Below, one piece after another: positions 3,274 through 55,210 of a stretch of DNA of 64,000 nt (position 1 is the stretch's first letter; the number at the start of each line of letters is the position of its first letter). The position numbers were made by a program, and so were the translations under genes. The notes below the pieces were generated by a model that was given only the letters and a program-made list of their open reading frames with translations, made no database searches and had not been told where the DNA came from. Source of the DNA: Vagococcus intermedius (lineage in GTDB: Bacteria; Bacillota; Bacilli; Lactobacillales; Vagococcaceae); assembly GCF_029144185.1 (NCBI RefSeq), contig NZ_CP110232.1:1240001-1304000 (forward strand). Direction: 5' to 3'.

Positions 3274-4623
3274 TTAAACAATTAGATTTAATATTAATGC
3301 TCCCGCTAAACCAACAACAGAAATAATTGATTCTAACATCGTCCAAGTGGCAAAAGTTTCTTTAATAGAGAGGTTGAAGTACTCCTTAAACATCCAAAAT
3401 CCAGCATCATTAACATGGGAAGCAATTAAACTCCCAGCTCCTGTTGCAATAACCATTAAAGCTGGATTGGTCCCTGTAGCGGTCATTAAAGGTGCTACTA
3501 AACCAGCTGCTGTTAAAGCAGCTACTGTCGCTGAACCGAGACAGACACGTAAAACTGCTGCGATTAGCCAACCTAAAATCAATGGCGATAAGCTAGAACC
3601 AACAAATAAACCAGCTACATAGTCACCTACTCCACCATCGATTAGCACTTGTTTGAATGCTCCGCCACCGCCTATAATCAATAACATCATGGCGATTTGT
3701 TTGATTGCATCTTCAGCAGATTTCATAATCGTTGTCATTTTTTGCTGACGTCTAATTCCCATAGTATAAATAGCAAATAATAAGGAAAGCAACATGGCCA
3801 TACCTGGCGTTCCAAGAAAAGCAATTACTTGATCTAACATCGGTGACTCTTCTGTTATTTTCCTACCAATTGCTAATTCGTAAGCGGTTGCAAGAGCCAT
3901 TAAAATAACTGGAAATAAAGAAGTAAGCGTACTTATACCAAAACTAGGTGTCTCTTCTAATTTAAATACTTTTTGTTTGCCTAGCGCGGTGATATTTCCT
4001 TGTTGTGAAAAGGCAGCTGGAACCAACTTTTGAGCGATTTTTGTATAGAGTGGCCCGGCGATAATACTTGTGGGAACCGCTATCACAAATCCATAAACTA
4101 ATACCATCCCAATATTAGCGTCATAAATTCCTGAAATTGCTGTTGGAGCAGGATGAGGTGGTAAAAAACCATGTGTTACTGATAAAGCCGCTGCCATAGG
4201 GATTCCTAAGTACAAAATAGAAACCCCTAACTCGCTAGCAATTGTGAAGATGATTGGTATCAACAAAACTAAGCCAACTTCAAAAAATAAAGCGATCCCA
4301 ATAATAAACGATGCCACCAATACAGCTAGCTGTATTCGTTTTTTACCAAATTTACTGATTAAGGTTGTCGATATGCGATAAGCTCCACCCGCATCAGCTA
4401 CCAACCGACCTAAAATAGCACCAAAACCAAAAACTAGTGCTAAATGTCCTAATTGACCGCCAATACCATTTTCAATCGTAGTGATTATTTGAGTCAAAGG
4501 CATTCCTAATCCTATAGCAACTACTAATGAGACAATAACTAGTGAAACAAAAGTATTTAATTTAACCTTCATAATTAAAAATAATAATAGCAATATACCT
4601 ATACCAACAATGATTAACTCCAT
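3274..4623 (-). CDS. gntP: Gluconate:H+ symporter, GntP family
   Basis: A 449-residue membrane protein with about 12 hydrophobic segments, of the GntP family that imports gluconate or related sugar acids with protons. Family features include the early LALVFGFGAILGRLVADAGG stretch and the HGFLPPHPAP motif near residue 150, typical of GntP/GntT permeases. It starts 17 bases after the gluconate kinase gene and shares its promoter, which supports gluconate as the substrate. Imported gluconate would be phosphorylated by the kinase and enter the pentose phosphate route. A terminator follows directly. Confidence 0.92.
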   Translation of the reverse strand: MELIIVGIGILLLLFLIMKVKLNTFVSLVIVSLVVAIGLGMPLTQIITTIENGIGGQLGHLALVFGFGAILGRLVADAGGAYRISTTLISKFGKKRIQLAVLVASFIIGIALFFEVGLVLLIPIIFTIASELGVSILYLGIPMAAALSVTHGFLPPHPAPTAISGIYDANIGMVLVYGFVIAVPTSIIAGPLYTKIAQKLVPAAFSQQGNITALGKQKVFKLEETPSFGISTLTSLFPVILMALATAYELAIGRKITEESPMLDQVIAFLGTPGMAMLLSLLFAIYTMGIRRQQKMTTIMKSAEDAIKQIAMMLLIIGGGGAFKQVLIDGGVGDYVAGLFVGSSLSPLILGWLIAAVLRVCLGSATVAALTAAGLVAPLMTATGTNPALMVIATGAGSLIASHVNDAGFWMFKEYFNLSIKETFATWTMLESIISVVGLAGALILNLIV

Positions 4624-39690: not shown

Positions 39691-39735
39691 TAAAAAAACG
39701 CCCGACTTTTTTACTCCCGAAAAAGTCCTGGCTGA
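39691..39735 (-). terminator. Terminator hairpin of the cobalamin riboswitch
   Basis: GACTTTTT / AAAAAGTC stem with GCC/GGC base pairs below it, followed on the minus strand by TTTTTTT (39692-39698). The 5' strand includes GCC that is also next to the aptamer end, so B12 binding could decide between the two folds. Confidence 0.7.
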
Positions 39736-39852
39736 AGTATCCTGACTTTGCTTCATCCGCCACAAATCCTTCCAACTTACGCCGTGGTTATTTGCTTTGT
39801 CCACAATACAGTTGCGGGTACAGTATCAGATTTTCACTGATTTCCTTCAAAC
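39736..39852 (-). promoter_or_regulatory. Cobalamin (B12) riboswitch, antisense orientation to pocR
   Basis: The minus strand reads GAAATCAGTGAAAATCTG, then TACCCGCAACTGT, a GGAAGG.. element and AGTCAGGATACTTC, matching the conserved core of adenosylcobalamin aptamers in order. The 5' part of the aptamer extends into the end of the 39864 gene. It points toward the pocR 3' end, with a terminator between. In Listeria monocytogenes a riboswitch in this position controls the pocR antisense RNA aspocR. No separate promoter was identified; it may be transcribed from the pduU/39864 unit. Confidence 0.85.
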
Positions 39853-39863
39853 ATATTATTCAA

Positions 39864-40946
39864 TTAATAAGATTCTCTAAAATAAAGTAACCTTAAATTT
39901 TCTGCTAATTGTTGACTAAATAGCTGAGGGTCTTCTTCAAGTAAATCAGCTAGTAAAAGATGTACTTCATTGGGTAAACGATCAGCTAGACTACTAATCC
40001 GACTAATGACAATCACTGGTAACTCGTAAGTGGCAAGTAGCTGCCTTAAATGTGTGTTACGATCTAAAATAATAAAATAATTAATAGCGCCTAGGTGCTC
40101 ACTGATATCTAAATAGTCTATCAAAGCCTCCAACTCATCTTCCACTCTCACTTGTTTGAAAAAGTTAAAGCAAGCAAAAGCCAAGCCATTTCCAGCACTC
40201 AGATGTTCGGGTTCTGGTGACACCTTTTTAAGAAGCTTATCTATTTCATTGACACAACTTGCTGTTTGTTTATCAAGTAGTTTAGCTATAGCAAAACTTG
40301 CGCCTGTCAATTCTTGATTTCTAATAGCCAAACCATGTTCACCGAAAAGTGGCCCAAAAGTTTTTGTGTCACTCCATATTTCATAATCACACTGTAACCA
40401 TTTAGAGTCTAATTTTTCATAAGAAAAACTTGCTATTTGTCCTATTTTACCACCTGTTATGTTGATTTGTCTACCATTATCTGCATAAAATATCACACCC
40501 AGAGACTCTAACATGCCTAAACCTAAGTCAGTTGCAATATTTTCGACATTTAAAAAGACAATATGTTCCGTGTTATTTTTAACTACCTTTTTTAGTAGCT
40601 CACCTAATCCGTGACTCGTACTCATAAGTGGTGCTCGTGCTAACGGTGGCACAGTCTTAGCACCTAAAACTGAGCCAACATCAATAAAAACTGTTTTTTT
40701 ATCAGTATCGTAGCCGTACAAGGCATCAACTGAAAATTTTAATGGGCCTTCTACCCTGGTAGAACGAAGTGACTGATTATGATAGTCCATCAACACTTGT
40801 AAATGACGTTCAAAATCTACCTCTGGTAACTGAAGGACTTCAGTATCTTTTGAAACGGCTTTCAAATCTAGTCGCATTTGTTCGATTAATTGATTATTGT
40901 CTCCTTGGTCTTCAACTAACGGGCTAACAGAATATACTTCTCGCAT
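39864..40946 (-). CDS. Divergent glycerate-kinase-like protein, probably not an active kinase
   Basis: A 360-residue soluble protein. By eye it aligns with type I glycerate kinase over most of its length: RVEGPLKFSVDALYGY, the stretch ARAPLMSTSHGLGELL (family form about RNPLxTTSYGTGELI), TDLGLGMLESLGVIF (family NDGGAGMLQALGVRF) and GNGLAFACFNFFKQV (family GAAGGLGFALLAF). The signature motifs are altered: the N-terminal ADGGEGT is PEVDFERH, the GIGGSATNDGG loop is LNVENIATDLG, and the TGEGRxDGQT segment is ILDRNTHLRQL. So catalysis seems lost and a sensing or regulatory role is possible. It is the second gene of the pduU unit; SD GGGGG precedes ATG. A role in the Pdu system is inferred from context. 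Confidence 0.7.
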   Translation of the reverse strand: MREVYSVSPLVEDQGDNNQLIEQMRLDLKAVSKDTEVLQLPEVDFERHLQVLMDYHNQSLRSTRVEGPLKFSVDALYGYDTDKKTVFIDVGSVLGAKTVPPLARAPLMSTSHGLGELLKKVVKNNTEHIVFLNVENIATDLGLGMLESLGVIFYADNGRQINITGGKIGQIASFSYEKLDSKWLQCDYEIWSDTKTFGPLFGEHGLAIRNQELTGASFAIAKLLDKQTASCVNEIDKLLKKVSPEPEHLSAGNGLAFACFNFFKQVRVEDELEALIDYLDISEHLGAINYFIILDRNTHLRQLLATYELPVIVISRISSLADRLPNEVHLLLADLLEEDPQLFSQQLAENLRLLYFRESY

Positions 40947-43433: not shown

Positions 43434-44252
43434 CTAATAATCATCCATCTCATCAAAATCTTCTTGATATTGACCTTCATCATAACGATCTTCATCAAAA
43501 TTGTGATCGTACTCTTCTTCATCAAGACCAAGCAACTCTAAGTCAGATTCTTCTTCATCATGCTCTTCCTCATTCTCTTCATCTAACTCTGTGTTAGCTT
43601 TTTCGAAAGGTTGGATATATTTTAAATATTCAGATTGGATTTCACCTGACGTCTTCATATTTTGTGGCGTACTTTTAAGCGCCTCTTCTTCTGACATCCC
43701 TTCTACTTGTATTTTATAAAGAGTCGGCGTCATACCATAAGTATTTAAAAAGTCAGTCAAAGTAGAGGGATCCCTATTAATACTATCTTGAGAAGAATTA
43801 CTCTCTTCTGATGATTCCAACTGTTGAGCATGAAATTTATCTTGCGCTTCTTGCTCTCTCTTAGCACCCTCAGCTAATTCTTCAGGAGTCGCTTGATAAT
43901 AGATGGATTGTGGGTCAAGTGTTCTGGGATCAGCGGATACTGACTCTTGAGAGTCAGTCCCCTCTTCTGTTTCCCTTGCAGTTTCCTGAATAACTGTTTC
44001 TTTTTGAGGTTCTTCTTTCTCATTATCATTCGTTTTAATACCTTTTGATTTTGACTTAACCTCTGAATCCATTCTCACGTCACTACTATCTTTAGTATTT
44101 TTATTTTCTTTCATTTTATCATCAGTTGTTTTTTTCTTAACTCCTGAAGACTCTGAACTGATCGTCTTTTCCACTACCGAATCAAGGGACTGACGACAGC
44201 CACCTAAAGCTAGTGTTGTCATTAACAAACTAATAACTGCTAACTTTTTCAT
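43434..44252 (-). CDS. Acidic lipoprotein of unknown function
   Basis: A 272-residue secreted lipoprotein: signal peptide with lipobox LGGC (Cys about residue 19), a Ser/Lys/Glu-rich linker (about 25-105), a middle helical region with the repeated pattern ADPRTLDPQSIYY / NRDPSTLTDFLN, and a C-terminal 45 residues almost entirely Asp, Glu and Tyr. ATG at 44252 follows AAGGAG. The acidic tail could bind cations or basic wall components; no known domain is recognised. Confidence 0.75.
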   Translation of the reverse strand: MKKLAVISLLMTTLALGGCRQSLDSVVEKTISSESSGVKKKTTDDKMKENKNTKDSSDVRMDSEVKSKSKGIKTNDNEKEEPQKETVIQETARETEEGTDSQESVSADPRTLDPQSIYYQATPEELAEGAKREQEAQDKFHAQQLESSEESNSSQDSINRDPSTLTDFLNTYGMTPTLYKIQVEGMSEEEALKSTPQNMKTSGEIQSEYLKYIQPFEKANTELDEENEEEHDEEESDLELLGLDEEEYDHNFDEDRYDEGQYQEDFDEMDDY

Positions 44253-44303
44253 TGTCAACACTCCTTTTTATAAAACATTTATACCCTCATTGTATCGTAA
44301 CCA

Positions 44304-44396: not shown

Positions 44397-45779
44397 CTAA
44401 TGAGACTCAAATTGTTTTATGTACCAGTCATTATATATTTTTAGAATAATTGGCAAGACAATATAGCCTGTTAACATGGAACCTATCGCATAAAAATTGA
44501 GATGGCTGTTACCTGTATCTGAAATAAGAGAGAACTGTCCCTGCCAATCAAATTTTAGTAATAAAAACAACGATGTTATAAAAGCTAACACAGGAATAAC
44601 CACATCCGTCAGATAATTTTTACTGACGTTTTGGAGAATAGCTTGTTTACTTTTCCCATGATAAAAACTCACAACTGCCATTGGTACTACTAAAAACTGA
44701 ATAAAGCGAGACACCGAACTAATAACCATAATACCTTTCATGTCATATTGGAAACTCATTGGGATTAAAATAGCTAAAATAGCGGTAATGATAAAAGCAA
44801 AGAGTGGCACACCTTTAGCATTTTTAGCTGCAAACTTACGCGGTAACTGTCCTTCTGAGGCAATTGCTTCGAAAACACGGGGCGTCCCAAAAGAAGCCGC
44901 AATATTAATTCCAAACATGGAGACCAAGGCACCGTACGTTATAATATTTTTAATCAAAGGATTGTCAAAAACGGCTGCTAAAACTACCACTTCTTTTGAG
45001 ACTACAATCGCACTTGGATTTATCATTAAGCCAATACCAATAATTCCAATATAAATAATTGCAATTATAATAATAGCTAAGGGGATTGCTCGTGGTAAAT
45101 TTTTTTCAGGATTTTCCATCTCTGAGGCTGCACTCGCTAAACTTTCAAACCCTGTAAAAGCATAAAATGCTGCCATGATAGCACCCGTCATCGTGGTTAA
45201 ATTCATCTTGATAGCTACCATAGTGTCAACTTCTGCTAAATGATTTTGACCTGTTTTCATAAAAATAACAAACCCTGCTAGAATCGCTACAACTAATGCT
45301 AAGACTTTCCCAATAGTAGAAATATTACTGAATAGTTTCAAAACATACGTCCCGGCTAAATTAATTCCTAATAATATTGCCATTAAAATAATAAAACCAA
45401 GCGTGACCTGTGAGGTACTGATATCGGTTGGACCATTAAGGATATTAACACTTGTTTTAACCACTGCTGTAGCCATGACACCCCAAGCAATCGAAGCAGC
45501 TACAAAACGAGTAATCCCTACATAAAAACCAACATTGTCACCAAAAGCTGCCTTGCTATATGCATAAGCTGCCCCATTTGTATTAACATATTTAGAAGCT
45601 GAGGCAAAGGTCACTGCTAAAATAATCGCAAAGAAAGCTGCAATCATATAAACCAGTGGTGTATAACTACCTGCTTTTAAAACAACTTCTTGCGGTGTTA
45701 AAAAGATCCCCGTCCCAATAATCGAATTTATGCCTAATAGAACAATGGACCAAAAACCAAACTTAACTGTCTTAGCCAT
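44397..45779 (-). CDS. APC-superfamily amino acid permease
   Basis: A 460-residue membrane protein with about 12 hydrophobic segments. The start KFGFWSIVLLGINSIIGTGIFLTP has the GIG..IF motif of APC transporters, and AFYAFTGFESLASAASEMENPEKNLPRA (about residues 204-231) is the conserved helix-6 loop. It likely moves a neutral, basic or amine-type amino acid; the next upstream gene, a C26 peptidase, suggests gamma-glutamyl compounds. Its ATG directly follows the stop of that gene (TAGATG), so both are coupled behind one leader. Confidence 0.9.
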   Translation of the reverse strand: MAKTVKFGFWSIVLLGINSIIGTGIFLTPQEVVLKAGSYTPLVYMIAAFFAIILAVTFASASKYVNTNGAAYAYSKAAFGDNVGFYVGITRFVAASIAWGVMATAVVKTSVNILNGPTDISTSQVTLGFIILMAILLGINLAGTYVLKLFSNISTIGKVLALVVAILAGFVIFMKTGQNHLAEVDTMVAIKMNLTTMTGAIMAAFYAFTGFESLASAASEMENPEKNLPRAIPLAIIIIAIIYIGIIGIGLMINPSAIVVSKEVVVLAAVFDNPLIKNIITYGALVSMFGINIAASFGTPRVFEAIASEGQLPRKFAAKNAKGVPLFAFIITAILAILIPMSFQYDMKGIMVISSVSRFIQFLVVPMAVVSFYHGKSKQAILQNVSKNYLTDVVIPVLAFITSLFLLLKFDWQGQFSLISDTGNSHLNFYAIGSMLTGYIVLPIILKIYNDWYIKQFESH

Positions 45780-46541
45780 CTAGCCAACCTCCTGTTGTTT
45801 CTTTTCCCTAACCGACTGAATAAATGACTTAAACAACGTTCGCATGTTAGGGGAAGTCGCTTGCATCATTTCAGGATGCCACTGGACTCCTACTTCCCAA
45901 AAATAGGTACTATTTTCAATACACTCAATCACACCATCAGCCGTTTTAGCCGTTACTTGAAAAGGCGTTCCAACATTTTTAATAACCTGATGATGAAATG
46001 AATTAATTTTAATTTGTGGTTGTTTTAAACTATTAAATAATTTGCTTTCTGGTAAAATTTCTAGCGTCTGAGTTGCTAAATCTGACCGATGACCTTGATT
46101 ATGTTTTAAAATAGTTGTACTGCTGGGTATATTAGATAAATCTTGATATAAGTCGCCACCATGATAGACATTTAATAACTGACAGCCTCGACAAATACCT
46201 AAAATACCTAGCTCGTTTTTTTCCGCTTCTGCTATCAATAATAACTCAAACTGATCACGTTCTGGAAAGATATCTCCTGTGTCTTGTGATACTTCTTCAC
46301 CATAATTCAAAGGTGACACATCATGCCCACCGGATAATATTAACCCATCTAACATCGCAACTTGTGCTTTAGTGACAGCTACATCCTCATTAAAAGGAAG
46401 CATTAAAGGGACGCCTCCAGCCGAAATAACAGAAGCTATGTAGTCATTGTTAACATATGAGCGTTTATAACCAGGAAACATTCCACCTTCATCAATAATT
46501 AAACTACCAGATATACCAATAATCGGTTTTATTTCCAACAT
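45780..46541 (-). CDS. Gamma-glutamyl hydrolase-type class I glutamine amidotransferase (peptidase C26)
   Basis: A 253-residue cytoplasmic enzyme of the PuuD/C26 group that hydrolyses gamma-glutamyl amide or amine bonds. Nucleophile elbow GICRGCQLLN (Cys117), and VGVQWHPEM gives the catalytic His and Glu. SGGHDVSP and FPERDQFELLL are family segments. In this class, substrates include gamma-glutamyl-GABA; the coupled amino acid permease may import the substrate or export the product. Preceded by a long structured leader with terminator. Confidence 0.88.
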   Translation of the reverse strand: MLEIKPIIGISGSLIIDEGGMFPGYKRSYVNNDYIASVISAGGVPLMLPFNEDVAVTKAQVAMLDGLILSGGHDVSPLNYGEEVSQDTGDIFPERDQFELLLIAEAEKNELGILGICRGCQLLNVYHGGDLYQDLSNIPSSTTILKHNQGHRSDLATQTLEILPESKLFNSLKQPQIKINSFHHQVIKNVGTPFQVTAKTADGVIECIENSTYFWEVGVQWHPEMMQATSPNMRTLFKSFIQSVREKKQQEVG

Positions 46542-46614
46542 AATGACCCCCTATTAAATATTAATCAATAGAAGCAAACAATAACAATACTTGTTTGCCT
46601 AGGATAAACAAAAA

Positions 46615-46644
46615 GAGGGAGAGGACAATAATGTCCCCTCCCTC
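46615..46644 (-). terminator. Terminator in the leader of the C26/permease operon
   Basis: A 13-bp stem GAGGGAGAGGACA / TGTCCCCTCCCTC with one mismatch that becomes a wobble on the minus strand, followed by CTTTTTG. It lies before the start codon, so it can act as a regulated attenuator. Confidence 0.8.
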
Positions 46645-46820
46645 TGACATAGCTACTCTAAATCATCGCCAAATAAACCGCTAAACAAAGAAAACGTTTA
46701 CAATTTATCTGATTAGTGTTAGCATTAACTATGGCACTGCTTAGTCATTGGGGACTAATCTTAACTCTCTAGTTGTTGTCGCATCTAGAGAGTGTCATAT
46801 TTTGTGTTTGCTTCTATCTG
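46645..46820 (-). promoter_or_regulatory. Structured 5' leader of unknown class (riboswitch candidate)
   Basis: About 175 nt between the promoter and the terminator. Stems visible on the minus strand: ACTCTCTAG / CTAGAGAGT, TTAGTC / GACTAA, GATTAGT / ACTAATC alternative to the latter, GTTA / TAAC, TAAAC / GTTTA, and a closing TGACA / TGTCA whose 3' strand abuts the terminator. A cre-like TGTAAACGTTTTCT lies inside. No known T-box, lysine, SAM, TPP or cobalamin core was found. Confidence 0.6.
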
Positions 46821-46825
46821 ACGCC

Positions 46826-46855
46826 ATTATAGGGATAATAAAGGCGAACAGTCAA
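46826..46855 (-). promoter_or_regulatory. Strong promoter of the C26/permease operon
   Basis: Minus-strand TTGACT (46850-46855), 18 bases, TATAAT (46826-46831). Confidence 0.75.
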
Positions 46856-55070: not shown

Positions 55071-55097
55071 GAAGGCACATTCAAATAGTTTAATTAT

Positions 55098-55180
55098 TTG
55101 CAGGGGGACGTTAGTCGTTGAGAAGGTAAAACCTGACCCTTAGAACCTGTTGGTTGATACCAGCGTAGGGAGCAGATGTC
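55098..55180 (+). promoter_or_regulatory. TPP riboswitch (THI element)
   Basis: GGGGGACG..TTGAGAAGG..ACCTGACCCTTAGAACCTG..GATACCAGCGTAGGGAGC keeps the order of conserved THI-box blocks, with TTGAGA in place of CTGAGA. A terminator follows, so thiamine pyrophosphate should stop transcription. Confidence 0.92.
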
Positions 55181-55210
55181 ACTTTGTCATACACTAAATC
55201 CCTGACATTT

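Follow-up and report, generated by a model that had tools for sequence, protein, structure and literature searches.

We begin with the question of what the structured leader ahead of a C26 peptidase/permease operon in Vagococcus intermedius is, and what it may respond to. The window, that is, the whole stretch of DNA analysed here, is 64,000 nt of contig NZ_CP110232.1 (assembly GCF_029144185.1, positions 1,240,001 to 1,304,000), and all positions given for the leader are within it. Every leader feature is carried by the minus strand: a promoter, a leader of about 175 nt, a strong terminator and then the peptidase and permease genes. The promoter, of the sigma-70 type (46826-46855, 11 of 12 consensus positions), has TTGACT (46855-46850) and TATAAT (46831-46826) with a spacer of 18 nt, just as an earlier sequence-only reading of this DNA described. 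The strong terminator which that reading placed ahead of the start codon is also present (46645-46614, 14 pairs and then a T tract). The start codon of the C26 peptidase gene, at 46541, is a further 70 nt past the terminator, with a Shine-Dalgarno-like AGGGGG at 46547-46552. Gene 1 (45780-46541) encodes a peptidase C26/class-I glutamine amidotransferase-like protein of 253 aa (PF07722, E 3.1e-66), which scores below the NCBIfam cut-off for gamma-glutamyl-GABA hydrolase; gene 2 (44397-45779) encodes an APC-type amino acid permease of 460 aa (PF13520, E 2.1e-44). Downstream of the permease lies an acidic lipoprotein-like ORF of 275 aa (43434-44261, minus strand) with no match in Pfam or NCBIfam.

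The leader together with its terminator folds far more stably than shuffled sequences (z -6.75, with none of 200 shuffles as stable), and the leader without the terminator does so to a lesser degree (z -3.07, 2 of 200). The earlier reading could not match it to T-box, lysine, TPP, cobalamin and several other classes, and a search of the leader against Rfam 15 likewise gives a best E of only 0.21, under every gathering score. The leader is structured, has the layout of an attenuator and is negative in Rfam. The whole window yields only a TPP riboswitch (55092-55188, plus strand) and a cobalamin riboswitch (39713-39910, minus strand), both elsewhere and above their gathering scores.

Does the leader have relatives? 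A DNA search finds parts of it again at other places of this genome and in other genomes of the genus, and these places share a layout that opens with a promoter and two hairpins, continues with TTGCCATAG and a long hairpin, and closes with CTATGTCA and the terminator. The Vagococcus paralogues have a promoter of the same type in the equivalent position, and the DNA match of the window leader to a paralogue (E 3.6e-9, 46 bases) provides support that is independent of covariance models. A covariance model of the 5' domain (R1) finds at least six copies in the window's genome, one of them degenerate, and at least five and at least six in two of the five genus mates; all copy numbers per genome are lower bounds. 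The copy at position 556361 of the window's genome is called degenerate because of its low score (35.6 bits with R1) and because no matching terminator is seen after it. The window leader itself scores 73.8 bits with R1 and 63.5 bits (E 9.7e-11) with a second model, R2, built from 116 R1 matches, both models including the window sequence. Over the order Lactobacillales, R1 matches 57 of 395 genomes and R2 matches 75 of 395, the latter in 17 of 80 genera including Vagococcus, Enterococcus and Listeria, with at least eight matches in the richest genomes. Samples of the class (Bacilli) and of the phylum give matches in 3 of 398 and 2 of 398 genomes; all of these are Lactobacillales, and the two samples therefore double as a specificity control. 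An exact scan for the core pattern returns eight stretches, from Enterococcus plantarum, E. raffinosus, E. avium, E. ureilyticus, Vagococcus proximus, V. fessus, V. salmoninarum and Listeria floridensis. BLAST finds a single plasmid record and a single phage record; the "Listeria phage" record, which carries no annotation, is left out.

Twelve further loci, searched against Rfam with E up to 0.5, have no match of the element near a gathering score, and the listings and abstracts of open-licence PMC papers contain no description of it that we could find. According to PMC7724050, a large number of long 5' UTRs in enterococci are still candidates for new regulatory elements. From the comparison of sequences we are confident of a new, apparently undescribed, multi-copy attenuator family, of which the window leader is probably a member. 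The copies vary in their surroundings. Some occur as tandem pairs about 300-450 bases apart (L149, L163, L161, L162, L127, L169). Orphan copies (L115, L117, L118, L126, L166, L079-L088) carry a promoter and a terminator of their own. Behind them comes noncoding sequence that is conserved and rich in repeats, such as CACTATAGG..CCTATAGTG, and that may belong to a longer noncoding RNA. In many of the Vagococcus loci L033-L043, a palindrome AAGGA-N6-TCCTTGAC, less clear in the window, overlaps the -35 box on its upstream side and is a possible operator.

The genes behind the copies bear on the ligand. The sequence-only reading, which missed the other copies in the genome, had proposed a gamma-glutamyl compound, GABA or the like from the two genes of the operon. 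As an idea for the whole family we reject this, because the copies stand before different genes and the leader is not consistently accompanied by the C26 operon: members lie ahead of PTS, ABC-sugar, arginine deiminase, LrgA, PdxA, KdgT, M20 peptidase and LXG toxin genes, and the best C26 relatives in the genus, 37% and 34% identical, are found in two of the five other genomes. Pfam was run on 30 proteins behind leaders, chosen by us from 119 loci, and 26 of them have a match. One type of downstream gene is catabolic, with PTS IIA/IIB/IIC, ABC sugar-binding proteins, beta-galactosidase, KdgT, PdxA, MFS, arginine deiminase, LrgA, M20 peptidase, a transketolase half and a SIS protein, and on E. 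faecium plasmids the element stands ahead of sugar ABC and GH2 operons. The other type consists of LXG, WXG100 and toxin-domain proteins (LXG/T7SS cassettes), where the element is found between genes of the toxin clusters.

We turn our attention to the structure that the copies share. The core consists of three helices, P1, P2 and P3, in which we are confident from their covariation. P1 joins segment A (TATGACAC, 46792-46799; family consensus GGCA) to segment B (GTGCCATAGTT, 46727-46737), whose TTGCC is nearly invariant in the family and whose alternative partner is segment C (AGCTATGTCA, 46645-46654), which adjoins the terminator and recurs in catabolic-type members. A copy in the window's genome before a cellobiose-type PTS (L033, G000:C1:1956480-1956602) is without the segment C and terminator part. 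P2 is the hairpin ACTCTCTAG..CTAGAGAGT (46793-46764), the 9-bp stem noted earlier, with an apical loop unlike the hexaloop of the family, and P3 is the hairpin TTAGTC-CCCAAT-GACTAA (46758-46741), likewise recognised before. A closing stem TGACA/TGTCA had been proposed as well; both sequences are present, but the comparison of homologues pairs TGACA with GTGCCATA (46737-46730), and P1 with segment B takes the place of that closing pair. Further down are a small hairpin P4 (GTTA-ATGC-TAAC, 46718-46729), whose covariation is judged by eye only, and a long hairpin P5 (ATCAGATAAATTGTAAACG ... TGTTTAGCGGTTTATTTGGCGAT, 46665-46713), suggested by folding.

The core stems covary strongly in homologues, where the earlier reading would have taken a lack of covarying stems as a refutation. 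In alignment A3 (116 matches from 98 sources, 109 distinct rows), whose fitting to a covariance model favours structure, 86% of the cells are paired over the 24 pairs of P1, P2 and P3. Changes on both sides of a pair occur in 369 cells of A3 against 120 in partner shuffles (0 of 500), which ignore relatedness, duplicates having been removed; the core covariation score drops at every slide of the partners. Thirteen columns that the model leaves unpaired are at least 90% conserved, including an A tract 5' of P1 and the bases that follow TTGCC, and the P2 loop in many members is a hexaloop with the ends C..A or T..G. A covarying sensor domain with conserved unpaired bases is what one expects of a riboswitch. 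It is quite possible, if short of probable, that the attenuator takes this finer form, with the P1-P2-P3 junction as an aptamer for a global carbon/energy signal whose ligand closes P3 (OFF). The compact three-way junction with its conserved unpaired columns, the P2 hexaloop kept in many members, a mutually exclusive expression platform, the many catabolic operons per genome and the absence of an adjacent regulator common to all copies speak for an aptamer, while the P3 loop, P4 and P5 are highly variable, the LXG toxin loci fit a sugar signal poorly, and the P2 loop motif is lost in the window copy.

The next question is whether an antiterminator exists that competes with the terminator. The 3' part of P3, usually CTGACCAAT, directly precedes CAAGTTGCC, and the 5' arm of the terminator usually holds the complementary ATTGGACAG. 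By eye, the two strands vary together: CTCACTAAT/ATTAGTGAG in the toxin-locus type, and CTGACTAATC/GATTAGACAG, TTGACCAAT/ATTGGACAA, TGTCTAATC/GGTTGGACA and CCTGTC/GACAGG in others. With a flexible register, the score is 15.32 for the strands paired as they occur and 13.30 when partners are swapped (0 of 2000; 79 distinct loci out of 109), and the two values become 16.26 and 13.97 (66 distinct) when 16 loci, picked by eye for a non-homologous-looking terminator call, are removed. These 16 come on top of 9 of 118 loci that have no terminator by the rule used. In a fixed register, 86 of 118 loci can be placed and 32, the window among them, are left out; here 319 of 423 cells are paired against 304 in shuffles (2 of 1000), and the covariation is modest (22 both-side changes against 14.7, 12 of 1000). 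Mutually exclusive antiterminator and terminator strands are conserved in homologues, more weakly so in the fixed register, and we are fairly confident, from the sequences, that the antiterminator exists in the family. In the window the canonical strands are lost, and a helix seen in this one sequence is predicted instead, between GTCCCC within P3 (46750-46755) and GGGGAC in the terminator 5' arm (46633-46638).

Folding of partial transcripts gives a picture of how the two structures could alternate. When the window transcript is cut before the terminator 3' arm, the predicted probability of GTCCCC/GGGGAC is 0.99. Among 23 hand-picked leaders, the window included, 18 have some antiterminator pair at 0.68 or above before the terminator 3' arm exists, in folds run without a shuffled control, and in five (L070, L102, L099, L181, L111) the antiterminator is not favoured. 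In the full transcripts the terminator is more probable than the antiterminator in all 23. Folds of this kind are expected of a co-transcriptional attenuator; as the terminator wins every full-length equilibrium fold, the ON state would need kinetics or a bound factor. One may ask if the terminator is simply constitutive or kinetic, the structured 5' part serving mainly as a small RNA or for mRNA stability rather than for sensing. Several copies in the genus of E. plantarum do have their own promoter and terminator with no close downstream gene, and the pairing P0 described below would protect a 5' end. We consider such a role unlikely, since the antiterminator is kept across the family, P0 requires read-through, and most other copies stand ahead of operons.

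P0, which the sequence-only reading missed, is a pairing of the 5' end of the RNA with sequence past the terminator. In the window its 5' strand GATAGAAGCAAACA (46805-46818) lies at or near the RNA 5' end and its 3' strand TGTTTGCTTCTAT (46568-46580) lies 3' of the terminator, giving the pairing GATAGAAGCAAA/TTTGCTTCTATT; V. salmoninarum has TTAAGCAAGTACGTT/AACGTGCTTGCTTAA and other members GTAGTAATAAATCCGA/TCGGATTTATTGCTGC. Over 73 distinct non-LXG loci, own partners give 25.3 against 19.7 for swapped ones (0 of 2000), and we are confident of the helix from this comparison. The LXG-type copies are without P0 (18.1 against 16.7, 41 of 2000, 19 distinct). Because the 3' strand lies beyond the terminator, P0 can form on read-through RNA only, and it probably clamps or protects the 5' end of the mRNA after read-through. 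The arms of P0 are also inverted repeats at the DNA level, and copies of the element are dispersed, some in tandem (L149, L163, L161, L162), as one would expect if they were a protein-DNA site or a mobile element with P0 as its terminal inverted repeats. That the element acts as DNA and not as RNA is nevertheless highly improbable: promoter and terminator are at fixed places, the inner helices covary with G-U allowed, and the LXG-type copies lack the supposed repeats.

How does the family compare with known systems? The S-box, L-box and T-box are transcription-attenuating leaders of Firmicutes. The new leaders resemble this kind in being 5' leaders with a sensor-like domain and an exclusive antiterminator and terminator before the start codon; they differ in having no Rfam match at or near threshold, in P0 past the terminator and in their use between genes of LXG clusters. 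The T-box itself is rejected, as its core AGGGTGGNACCGCG is no better matched in 119 leaders than in mono-shuffles, the best site in the window having six mismatches. EutV/ANTAR antitermination uses dual hairpins with an A1/G4 hexaloop rule. Measured against this general description, the new family is alike in its two successive hairpins, its hexaloop and its occurrence in Enterococcus and Listeria, and unlike in its loop letters, which differ from the A1/G4 rule, and in its long-range antiterminator. A Listeria sRNA, rli117 (RF02909), is also found near the element in an Enterococcus locus. It is a separate RNA, at 1900-2162 of the E. plantarum locus L069, where the element is at 1323-1397 and has no rli117 match; a second rli117-like stretch lies at 4191-4336 of that locus, and only the first is above the gathering score.

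The BglG/LicT/SacY type of attenuator, as represented by NagY of E. faecalis (PMC12502629), is alike in that an antiterminator overlaps a terminator before PTS genes, and some loci of the new family have a CAT domain next door. The RAT is one local hairpin, whereas the antiterminator strands of the new family are far apart. Searched as patterns, with no structure model of the RAT, the RAT 3' half and the NagY RAT core are no better matched in the 119 leaders than in shuffles, and a BglG/LicT attenuator with a local RAT hairpin is rejected on this pattern search. A CAT RNA-binding domain alone, with no PRD, is found by tblastn soon after the leader in 8 of the 119 loci, all of them Enterococcaceae: L070 (6670-6822, minus strand), L071, L111 (2001-2153, minus strand), L131, L140, L142, L143 and L182, with 51 aa in L070, L071 and L111. 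Such a solo CAT is possibly a single-domain antiterminator. Four multi-copy Vagococcus genomes (G000, G001, G003, G004) have no short CAT frame, every CAT-like match there being in a frame of 284-291 aa; the solo CAT is accordingly rejected for Vagococcus and is not the general factor of the family. These observations bear on a second finer form of the attenuator, in which an RNA-binding protein acts on P2/P3 or on the antiterminator. The alternating C..A and T..G ends of the P2 hexaloop resemble a protein site, and the solo CAT domains point the same way, while the 284-291 aa frames in Vagococcus and the failure of the classical RAT, NagY RAT and T-box motifs to exceed shuffles point against it. 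We regard protein dependence as possible and hold it tentatively.

There remains the relation to catabolite control. P5 of the window contains a perfect cre-like site, TGTAAACGTTTTCT (46689-46702, 13 of 13 positions of the motif as generally known), which is likely a CcpA site. Sites of at least 12 of 13 occur in 8 of 89 non-LXG loci, against 1.8% of shuffles, and in none of 29 LXG-type loci. CcpA control is by these counts plausible for some copies and is no feature of the family.

Combining this information, we propose that the window leader is, with good probability, a cis-acting transcription attenuator belonging to a new multi-copy RNA family. The nascent leader would fold P1, P2 and P3. 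The 3' part of P3 could then switch partner to the terminator 5' arm, which would make the antiterminator and exclude both P3 and the terminator; in the window version this pairing would be shifted to GTCCCC/GGGGAC. If P3 were held closed, e.g., by something bound at the P1-P2-P3 junction, the 5' arm would be free and the terminator would form (OFF); if P3 opened, the antiterminator would form and the operon would be transcribed (ON). After read-through, P0 would join the 5' end of the RNA to the sequence past the terminator. The direction of the switch, with closed P3 as OFF, is the one that we infer from this arrangement, while the trigger may be a metabolite, a protein or an RNA, carbon/energy status being a guess. 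Doubtful, and offered as a broader speculation, is the idea that a hitherto undescribed class of riboswitch-like RNAs responds to a single global carbon/energy signal and runs a scavenging regulon of enterococci and vagococci (sugar PTS/ABC uptake, arginine deiminase, LrgA, peptides, nucleosides). These RNAs would exert catabolite control beside CcpA, and LXG/T7SS loci would have co-opted them to gate toxin cassettes.

If the proposal is right, Enterococcus (with E. faecium plasmids among its sites), Listeria and Vagococcus harbour a structured regulatory RNA that has escaped notice although a genome can hold eight copies of it or more. The P0 clamp would be an unusual way of marking read-through transcripts, and one RNA signal would link nutrient scavenging with interbacterial toxins.
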